This document shows, one piece after another, positions 17,333 through 58,973 of a stretch of 64,000 nt of DNA. Both the position numbers and the translations under genes were made by a program. Where the stretch lies: positions 1 to 64,000 of the forward strand of contig NZ_SOSC01000006.1 of assembly GCF_005049285.1 (NCBI RefSeq), given 5' to 3'. Each line of letters opens with the position of its first letter. Within the stretch, counting starts at the first letter, position 1. This stretch comes from Halorientalis salina (GTDB taxonomy: Archaea > Halobacteriota > Halobacteria > Halobacteriales > Haloarculaceae). The notes under the pieces were generated by a model that was not told the origin of the DNA, made no database searches, and worked only from the letters and a program-made list of their open reading frames with translations.

Positions 17333-17722
17333 TTACCCGGGGACGACACGCACATCGTTCGCGTCGAGACACGCGCGGACGCGGTCGGCGAAGGACCCGG
17401 TGCCGGGCCAGTCGGCCGGCGCGCCGAGCGGGTCGGGGTCGCCGACGTAGACGGCCGCGCAGTCGTCGGCCGCGTCGGTTTCGAGGGGGACAGACACCCG
17501 GACGTACAAGCCGCGGTCGACGCCCTCGTAACGGTCCAGCATCTCGACGTCCGTCGTCCGAAGGAGCCGTCCCTCGACGGACCCGCCGGGTGCGAGGGTC
17601 GGATACGTGCCCGCGACGCGATGGAGTCCGGAGAGAACGACATCCCCGACGTACTCGAACGAGTAGAGGAACTGATCGGCCTGCTCGGGGTCGGCCAGAG
17701 TCCCGTAAACGAAGACGTCCAT
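17333..17722 (-). CDS. Gamma-glutamylcyclotransferase-like protein
   Basis: A 129-residue AIG2/GGCT-fold protein. It begins MDVFVYGTLADPEQ, the characteristic YGTL loop that holds the glutamyl group, and carries a conserved acidic residue in DRYEGVDRGLYVR plus AVYVGDPDPLG. Family members cyclise gamma-glutamyl amines or amino acids to pyroglutamate. Haloarchaea make gamma-glutamylcysteine instead of glutathione, so that pathway is a possible context (inference). It is 39 bases downstream of the Cas4-like gene on the same strand. Confidence 0.8.
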   Translation of the reverse strand: MDVFVYGTLADPEQADQFLYSFEYVGDVVLSGLHRVAGTYPTLAPGGSVEGRLLRTTDVEMLDRYEGVDRGLYVRVSVPLETDAADDCAAVYVGDPDPLGAPADWPGTGSFADRVRACLDANDVRVVPG

Positions 17723-17761: not shown

Positions 17762-18409
17762 TCAGAGCAACGAGCGCAGCGAGCGCGTCCGGACGCCACA
17801 CTGCTCGCGGAACTCGCACGGGGCGCACTTGGCGTCGTTGTCGATTCTCGCTGGCGGCCCGTCGACGGCGTCGGCGGTCCGGACGGCCTTGCGGTAGGCC
17901 GCCTTCCGCCGCGTGGTCAGGGACACGTCGCGGACGACGCCGTGGGCCGGGTACTCGGCGAAGGCGCGCTCGACGGGCGTCTCGCGCTCCCAGGCGAGGG
18001 CTTTCGCGGCGGCGACCAGCCGGACCGACTGGGGTTCCCAGACCCCCTGGTCCGGCGGCTGTCCCGAGAAGACCAGCGAGGGGGCCAGCGGGTCCTCGAT
18101 GATCTTGTGGGCGACTCCGCGACACTCTCGACCTTCGAGCAGCCGCTCGCGTTCGGGCGGGTCGACCAGCGACTCCCAGCAGTCCAGTCGAGCTTTCGTC
18201 GCCCCGAGCCTGGACCGGAACTGCGTGGGGGAGGCCTCGATGGGGGCCGCGAGCAGGTCGGCGTCGCTGTCGAGCAGGCGTTCGTACTCGAAGGCGAGGC
18301 TACGGCAGGCGGCCACCTCGTCGGGAACGTCGGGCGGTCCCGAGCGACGTCGGTAGTAGAGCTTTCGCGGGCAGTACGCGGCCGTCTCCACGTCCCGGAA
18401 GGAGTGCAT
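17762..18409 (-). CDS. Solitary Cas4-like (RecB/PD-(D/E)XK fold) protein
   Basis: A 215-residue protein with the Fe-S signature of Cas4/Dna2-type nucleases: Cys13 in ETAAYCPRKLYYRRR and Cys195, Cys198, Cys204 near the C-terminus. Cas4 enzymes are Fe-S exonucleases that help CRISPR spacer capture. Here the catalytic set looks missing: the expected Gly-x-x-Asp region reads GVAHKII (98-104) and the expected Glu-x-Lys region reads PSLVFSGQPP (110-119), though a QSVRLVAAAKAL helix with the usual glutamine is kept. No CRISPR array or other cas gene is in the window. I start at the ATG at 18409; upstream in-frame sequence is low-complexity repeat DNA. The following gene is GGCT-like. Confidence 0.75.
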   Translation of the reverse strand: MHSFRDVETAAYCPRKLYYRRRSGPPDVPDEVAACRSLAFEYERLLDSDADLLAAPIEASPTQFRSRLGATKARLDCWESLVDPPERERLLEGRECRGVAHKIIEDPLAPSLVFSGQPPDQGVWEPQSVRLVAAAKALAWERETPVERAFAEYPAHGVVRDVSLTTRRKAAYRKAVRTADAVDGPPARIDNDAKCAPCEFREQCGVRTRSLRSLL

Positions 18410-18478: not shown

Positions 18479-18629
18479 CCGCCGCCGGAGGCGGCGGTTC
18501 ACTCGGCGCGAACGGAGTGAGCGCCGAGCGGTTTTTAGTCCACTGTCAGAGCAAGCTCTGACAAGCACCCGCTCGCATGCTCGCGGGAACAGGTTTTTGC
18601 TTCGGGGGGTCGCCGCCGGCGACCCCCCG
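18479..18629. repeat. Run of five consecutive hairpins
   Basis: This 151-base spacer between the Cmi4-like gene and the Cas4-like gene contains five inverted repeats in a row: 18479-18486/18490-18497 (8 bp), 18502-18509/18521-18528 (8 bp), 18544-18552/18555-18563 (9 bp), 18568-18572/18583-18587 (5 bp, with a GCATGC core) and 18603-18614/18618-18629 (12 bp). T runs follow the second and fourth on the plus strand (18532-18536, 18594-18598). All but the fourth are perfect. Confidence 0.75.
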
Positions 18630-18645
18630 CAGTAAAAAAGTGGTG

Positions 18646-19251
18646 TCAGAATTTAGTGTCCGTCTCGATGTCCTCGGCGGCCTCCTCGAGGCCGTCCTCC
18701 CTGGCGGACTCGGTGAGCGTGAGCGACAGGGCGGCGTCGGGGATGGCGTCCTCGAACTCGCTCCGGAAGCGGTGGCTGACCCGGCGGCTGCGGGCCTGGG
18801 CGTTCGCGACGCGCAGGGCGCGAGCGACGGTCGCGGGGTCGGAGTCGAGTCGCTCGGCGAGATCGGGCACGTCCGGAGCGTCGTCGTCGCGCTGGTCGCG
18901 GAGATCGGCGAGGTCGAACGGGAAGTCGGTATCGGCGTCGCGGAGGAGATGCAGGTCCATACGGGCGCGGAACACGGTAGCGGGATCGGCGTCGACCGCG
19001 GCAGCGATGGTCTCGTCGTCGTCCCCGTCGTAAAAACCCTGAACGACCTGCTGGAGGGTGTCCTCGTCCAGGTCGGTGTCGAACTCGTAGCGGTCGCGCA
19101 TACGATCGATGACGGCGACGAGGCGTTCGGGCACGTCGGCCTCGTCGGCGTCGGCGAGCGATCCCCGGTCGTCGGCCTGGGCCTCGGTCACAGTTTCCTC
19201 GTCCGTGACGTCCACGAAGATGTCCCGGAGTTCCTCCGTCTTCTCGTCCAT
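18646..19251 (-). CDS. Conserved haloarchaeal protein, Cmi4-like
   Basis: A 201-residue acidic protein that begins MDEKTEELRDIFVDVTDEE. The middle part contains two repeated helical blocks that look like helix-turn-helix modules (DDETIAAAVDADPATVFRARMDLHL about 76-98 and LAERLDSDPATVARALRVANAQ about 126-148), so nucleic-acid binding is possible. It resembles proteins annotated in haloarchaea as conditioned-medium-induced protein 4; I am only moderately sure of that name. A TATA (GTTTAAATAG, 19279-19288 minus strand) places the transcript start a few bases before the chosen ATG, which argues against the longer upstream frame. Confidence 0.65.
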   Translation of the reverse strand: MDEKTEELRDIFVDVTDEETVTEAQADDRGSLADADEADVPERLVAVIDRMRDRYEFDTDLDEDTLQQVVQGFYDGDDDETIAAAVDADPATVFRARMDLHLLRDADTDFPFDLADLRDQRDDDAPDVPDLAERLDSDPATVARALRVANAQARSRRVSHRFRSEFEDAIPDAALSLTLTESAREDGLEEAAEDIETDTKF

Positions 19252-58822: not shown

Positions 58823-58973
58823 CGAGGCGCTCTCTCCGGTCGCGCCTCGCCCTTCCTCACGGGTCGTGCCTCGCCGTTTGCCTTTCCGAGGCGCTCTCTC
58901 CGGTCGCGCCTCGCTCTTCCTCACGGGTCGTGCCTCCCCGTTCGGTTCGAGGCCTCCCTCCGGTCGGCCTCGC
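58823..58973. repeat. Three direct copies of a palindromic repeat
   Basis: CGAGGCGCTCTCTCCGGTCGCGCCTCGC occurs at 58823-58850 and 58887-58914 (64-base period, 1-2 differences), and a shorter variant at 58948-58973. Each forms a GAGGC/GCCTC hairpin. The linker between copies, including CTTCCTCACGGGTCGTGCCTC, is repeated too. A fourth related copy is at 52703-52728. The last copy overlaps the amidohydrolase C-terminus. Confidence 0.75.

Follow-up and report, generated by a model that had tools for sequence, protein, structure and literature searches.

The locus considered here encodes a Cas4-like protein on the minus strand of a 64,000-nucleotide stretch of Halorientalis salina DNA (hereafter the window), and it raises the question of whether this protein is still a nuclease and, if it is not, what it might do instead. 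Descriptions of the Cas4 family treat all its members as nucleases, and such genes are entered in databases as Cas4; surveys of the family found active-site residues conserved throughout (PMC5704561, PMC12538437), and a 2025 paper reported conservation of the metal-chelating residues across archaeal Cas4 (PMC12538437). A sequence-only reading of the window had proposed that the product may be a Cas4-like Fe-S protein that is nuclease-dead and has no part in CRISPR, and residue counts, independence from Cas1 and purifying selection bear this proposal out at the level of sequence.

The reading frame is uninterrupted (215 codons plus stop), and the nearest relatives of its product are from Halorientalis, with 86–89% identity. 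The NCBIfam cas4 equivalog model TIGR00372 aligned with nearly the full length of the protein (residues 6–205) at 32.4 bits, below its cut-off of 65, and Pfam Cas_Cas4 aligned with the C-terminal part at 15.4 bits, below its cut-off of 22.7; TIGR00372 matches to some relatives outside the haloarchaea were far stronger (down to 3e-23). Searching the PDB with the single sequence gave no matches, and searching with a family profile identified the Cas4 of 8d3l (E 1.7e-6). An AlphaFold2 model built from 21 sequences was of moderate quality (mean pLDDT 73.6), the core being good and both cysteine-bearing ends poor (<50). Its best Foldseek matches were AdnAB at the top, the type I-C Cas4 of a Cas4-Cas1-Cas2 complex, RecE and Cas4/Cas1, with E-values of 2.4e-5 to 7e-4 for AdnAB, Cas4 and RecE and best-match TM-scores of only about 0.4–0.5. 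As the Foldseek and 8d3l profile matches indicate, the protein is predicted to have a Cas4/RecB-like PD-(D/E)XK fold.

Residue counts were taken from three aligned groups: 116 distinct sequences of haloarchaea, 57 relatives belonging to other families of the phylum, and eight intact Cas4-type controls. The controls include CRISPR-type Cas4s of the same phylum, a 383-residue Cas4-like protein encoded in the window's genome and one locus neighbour. The protein has the Cas4 pattern of one N-terminal and three C-terminal cysteines. Cys13 was present in 115 of the 116 haloarchaeal relatives and Cys195, Cys198 and Cys204 each in 116/116, and all four were found in 57/57 relatives from other families. 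The cysteines picked out by the sequence-only reading are therefore near-invariant across 173 relatives, a pattern suggesting that the protein binds an Fe-S cluster. Coordinates of these and the other features are given in the table.

Table. Features of the Cas4-like locus, in coordinates of the window
Feature	Position	Strand	Basis
CDS, 215-aa Cas4-like protein, predicted to be nuclease-dead	17762..18409	-	intact ORF; TIGR00372, fold, distribution
Cys13, putative N-terminal Fe-S cysteine, in A-A-Y-C-P-R	18371..18373	-	invariant in A1 and A2; 115/116, 57/57
His101 at catalytic Asp position of Cas4	18107..18109	-	alignment to 8d3l
Leu112-Val113-Phe114 at Glu-x-Lys position	18068..18076	-	alignment to 8d3l, residue counts
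Arg130 at Gln position of Q-x3-Y	18020..18022	-	residue counts
Cys195-x2-Cys198-x5-Cys204, putative C-terminal Fe-S cysteines	17798..17827	-	invariant in 173 relatives
Conserved C-terminal tail, residues 206-215, VRTRSLRSLL	17765..17794	-	loose motif counts
Upstream co-directional gene, helical protein of about 200 aa, no library match	18646..19251	-	most frequent haloarchaeal upstream neighbour
Series of short inverted repeats between upstream gene and Cas4-like gene	18479..18638		inverted-repeat search
GGACT (gamma-glutamylcyclotransferase-like) gene, neighbour here only	17333..17722	-	Pfam GGACT 1.6e-11

The catalytic positions gave a different picture. Two things set the register of the Glu-x-Lys motif: the 'FPVEYKRG' stretch of 8d3l in the profile alignment, and the anchor 'P-x-E-x-K'; in two controls MAFFT had placed a gap inside the motif, and both read directly as P-(I/V)-E-R-K. 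The sequence-only reading had a His at the catalytic Asp position, in agreement with His101 in this alignment, but had placed Phe-Ser-Gly (114–116) at Glu-x-Lys, two residues late. Position 101 was His in 103/116 haloarchaea; it was Asp in 47/57 relatives outside the haloarchaea and in 8/8 controls. An acid was never seen at position 112 among the 116 haloarchaeal and 57 other-family relatives, and across the phylum none of these 173 had Asp or Glu anywhere in positions 111–113, whereas the motif is intact in all eight Cas4-type controls. Position 114 was Ser or Phe in 108/116 haloarchaea and Lys or Arg in 51/57 other-family relatives. The Gln of Q-x3-Y (Gln in 8/8 controls) was replaced by Arg or His in 101/116 haloarchaea and its Tyr (Tyr in 8/8 controls) by Ala134 in the 215-residue protein; the Gln helix said earlier to be kept rests on Gln127, a different residue three places before Arg130. 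Both the Asp plus Glu/Asp-x-Lys metal site of Cas4 nucleases (His101, Leu112, Phe114) and their Q-x3-Y motif (Arg130, Ala134) are absent from this protein. That the Asp and Glu positions matter follows from a Cas4 study that took TON_0321 D96A/E105A as its control without catalytic activity (PMC12538437). With the metal-binding acids and the lysine lost, the Cas4-like protein would not cut DNA, and the 215-residue haloarchaeal protein is very probably without nuclease activity. Two early-branching haloarchaeal sequences (L075 and L077) have kept Asp and Lys and lost Glu, which points to a stepwise decay of the site: Glu would have been lost before the clade diversified, and Asp, Lys, Gln and Tyr later, in the haloarchaea.

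Migration of catalytic acids is known in PD-(D/E)XK enzymes, and activity could in principle persist through relocated residues. Glu152, present in 116/116 haloarchaea and 38/57 relatives elsewhere, is one candidate; outside the haloarchaea another would be Asp127, position 127 being Asp or Glu in 57/57 of these sequences, acting with the retained Asp101 (47/57) and Lys/Arg114 (51/57). In the haloarchaea, however, position 127 is Gln or His, 101 His, 114 Ser or Phe and 130 Arg or His, leaving no metal-binding pair near the old site, and a relocated nuclease is quite improbable. Outside the haloarchaea, where Asp101 and Lys/Arg114 are often kept and position 127 is acidic, residual or relocated activity is excluded less firmly.

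The loss sets this protein apart from the families that it most resembles. With solo-Cas4 (COG1468/DUF83/TIGR00372) it shares the fold, the four Fe-S cysteines, a stand-alone gene and largely vertical inheritance in order-level clades; it differs in that the catalytic Glu was found in no examined member here, the haloarchaea also being without Asp, Lys, Gln and Tyr, and in the conserved C-terminal tail of the present clade. The fold and cysteine module are likewise common to CRISPR Cas4 (8d3l, 7mi4), SSO0001 (4ic1) and Pcal_0546 (4r5q), but these are active nucleases with a metal site, whereas the 215-residue protein has neither the site nor a link to cas genes. As judged by residue counts, the present clade is an exception to the published conservation of the Cas4 active site. 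No description of the haloarchaeal clade was found in the open literature searched, and an earlier annotation may exist in subscription journals or arCOG tables. A conserved, single-copy haloarchaeal core gene that has kept the fold and cysteines without the catalytic site separates the job of the Fe-S scaffold from cutting, and would amount to a natural experiment on cluster and fold alone in organisms with good genetics.

A search of 242 haloarchaeal genomes, each at least 90% complete, found a homologue in 240, representing all 74 genera and normally as a single copy; genomes with two matches mostly had one gene split by insertion. Across the phylum, 287/296 genomes matched a broader profile, which also catches CRISPR Cas4s. 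Pairwise dN/dS within the window's genus was 0.07–0.15, and the gene is under purifying selection; with the same loss in every relative examined and dN/dS of about 0.1, the altered site reflects more than chance. A quick maximum-likelihood tree, rooted on the eight controls (some of them long-branched) and with several long branches, separated the solo sequences from the controls (SH-aLRT 98) and placed the haloarchaea in one clade (SH-aLRT 99). On this tree the gene is a haloarchaeal member of a putative solo-Cas4 clade spanning the phylum Halobacteriota. In the two genomes without a homologue, L241 (G014) and L242 (G225), the Sua5 side of the locus and the redoxin genes are intact and the Cas4-like gene is gone; since two species have lost it from an otherwise recognizable locus, the gene is not strictly essential. 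One of these two genomes has a CRISPR-type Cas4. In many haloarchaeal chromosomes that appear complete, no more than about 100 kb separates the gene from the start or the end of the sequence, and an origin may be close by.

This distribution bears directly on any connection with CRISPR. Homology to Cas4, together with the involvement of an active archaeal solo-Cas4 in the processing of prespacers in Pyrococcus furiosus (cited in PMC12538437), would suit an accessory factor in spacer acquisition. Cas1, however, was found in 93/242 haloarchaeal genomes as against 240/242 for the Cas4-like homologue, and no Cas1 was found in any of the five genomes of the window's genus, including that of the window itself; where CRISPR does exist, intact Cas4 paralogues exist too. 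The gene shows neither the linkage to nor the co-occurrence with cas1 that mark a CRISPR-associated Cas4. A direct-repeat search of the window revealed no CRISPR-like array, only a single unrelated repeat pair, and this, with the lack of a genome-wide Cas1 match, agrees with the earlier statement that no array or cas gene lies nearby. A CRISPR role for the protein was rejected on the distribution of Cas1, participation in spacer acquisition being extremely improbable, and such genes should not be annotated as CRISPR exonucleases. In the repeat pair (58823–58942) a 56-nt sequence occurs twice in direct orientation, with 96% identity between the copies and 64 nt between them. The window's genome, in which no Cas1 was found, also encodes the 383-residue Cas4-like protein (L169, contig C22 8893–9189) with D, E-x-K and Q-x3-Y intact, and another genome (G285) has a gene for an intact Cas4-like nuclease (L210:4399–4977) next to, and divergent from, the one predicted to be dead.

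The surroundings of the gene were compared for hints of function. At most haloarchaeal loci a convergent Sua5/YrdC gene lies downstream, followed by redoxin and glutaredoxin genes (names that reflect our reading of the sequences), and five loci from other families have Sua5 in the vicinity. The Sua5 of Haloferax volcanii is HVO_0253, and the glutaredoxin HVO_0251 is in the list of an oxidative-stress regulator (PMC3017900, PMC9426492). Judged by synteny, the orthologue of the Cas4-like gene in this species is probably HVO_0254, next to HVO_0253. The Sua5, redoxin and glutaredoxin neighbours would fit an Fe-S sensor with a redox or thiol link, or an accessory to t6A tRNA modification. The Sua5 block is nevertheless on the opposite strand, and so does not form one operon with the Cas4-like gene; it also persists at the loci that have lost the Cas4-like gene. 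Genomes of the window's genus have no Sua5 next to the gene; what follows there is a threonine dehydratase-like gene. A role of this kind is accordingly unlikely.

Genes of DNA metabolism were also seen near the Cas4-like gene. In the earliest-branching family (f15) genes for a HerA-like ATPase and DUF555 and the Cas4-like gene are consecutive on one strand at three loci (L128, L209 and L237), an operon-like order with overlapping ORFs at two of these (L128 and L237). A divergent PCNA gene adjoins the Cas4-like gene in nine loci of f16, and MCM is nearby in f17, f22 and f25, with TBP too in f22. An enrichment of replication genes among the neighbours (PCNA, MCM, HerA, ERCC4) was striking at first but was rejected: among 120 distinct neighbour families about 2–4 would be expected by chance if, as we assumed, 2–3% of the genome consists of such genes, and the observed number was not above this expectation. 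With so many families and a few such neighbours expected anyway, only the position of HerA in f15 and the recurrence of PCNA next to the gene were kept, as weak hints. Identification of a small protein beside some relatives as a Holliday-junction resolvase was dropped, as it had no Pfam or PDB match.

The C-terminal tail provides a further clue. The strict motif [ST]LxSx[FL][FL] was present in 39/57 relatives outside the haloarchaea and in 0/464 other neighbouring proteins; a looser form was found in 103/116 haloarchaeal and 53/57 other-family sequences, compared with 7/464 background C-termini and 0/8 Cas4 controls. The tail resembles a PIP box, but the strict PCNA-binding pattern Q-x2-[ILMV]-x2-[FYW]-[FYW] occurred in 0/116 and 0/57 sequences, and this identification was discarded. 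Its conservation suggests that the tail would bind a partner.

The conserved tail would equally suit a structural or protein-binding Fe-S protein acting off nucleic acid, such as a complex scaffold, and there is a precedent in the archaeal virus TTV1, whose nucleocapsid includes a Cas4-like protein that has been inactivated (PMC5704561). That protein is, like the present one, a nuclease-dead Cas4 derivative in archaea (PMC5704561), although it is viral and structural whereas the 215-residue protein is cellular and found in nearly all haloarchaea, and the two are likened by description, not by sequence. The wide conservation of a chromosomal gene in cells argues against such a fate; moreover, as part of a nucleocapsid the TTV1 protein is itself associated with nucleic acid. 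A structural role off nucleic acid therefore has a low probability, similar to that of the redox or t6A reading.

Retention of the cysteines with loss of the cutting site suggests instead that DNA is most likely handled without being cut, and a DNA role is favoured by the f15 HerA–DUF555 arrangement and the divergent PCNA in nine f16 loci. We infer DNA binding, a partner and a process as follows. The Cas4/RecB-like scaffold with its four Fe-S cysteines, no longer cutting DNA, would most likely still bind DNA ends or single strands, and the tail would recruit a partner for replication, recombination or repair, perhaps replication or repair. A non-catalytic Fe-S protein that binds DNA as an adaptor or reader during some housekeeping process is, taken as a full account, a proposition to which we give even chances. 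Against it, outside f15 no conserved operon links the gene to DNA metabolism, and the genes around it in haloarchaea encode Sua5, redoxins and a helical protein without a Pfam or NCBIfam match. The RecB-like fold is shared with AddB, AdnAB (the top Foldseek match) and the nuclease-dead domain of RecC, although these are domains of helicase complexes and the 215-residue protein is single and small. RecC illustrates how a dead nuclease domain can read DNA, and by analogy the role of the Cas4-like protein may be comparable. A more specific and more doubtful version, offered tentatively, is that almost all Halobacteriota carry a Cas4 subunit of ancient origin that does not cleave, an Fe-S reader of DNA ends made from a nuclease and serving chromosome maintenance, whose tail would engage a DNA translocase or a clamp; in some lineages these would be HerA or PCNA.

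The immediate flanks of the gene in the window are partly local. The GGACT-like gene had correctly been placed beside the Cas4-like gene, but the arrangement is not conserved: GGACT was adjacent at 0/64 other haloarchaeal loci and present in one, 4.3 kb away, and a gamma-glutamyl or thiol operon was ruled out because the adjacency is unique to the window. On the other side, a gene for a helical protein lies upstream on the same strand at 44/64 other haloarchaeal loci, usually at a distance of 27–130 nt. Neither Pfam nor NCBIfam matched this protein, and its AlphaFold2 model had helix-turn-helix-like stretches and only weak fold matches; we take it to be the protein labelled conditioned medium-induced protein 4, a phrase not found in the literature searched. 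Rfam and consensus promoter and terminator scans of the locus gave nothing useful. The run of hairpins behind which the gene was earlier said to lie corresponds to the inverted repeats in the table, and the gap that holds them is 237 nt here, compared with 27–130 nt in most haloarchaea and about 490–700 nt in 3/4 Halorientalis relatives.
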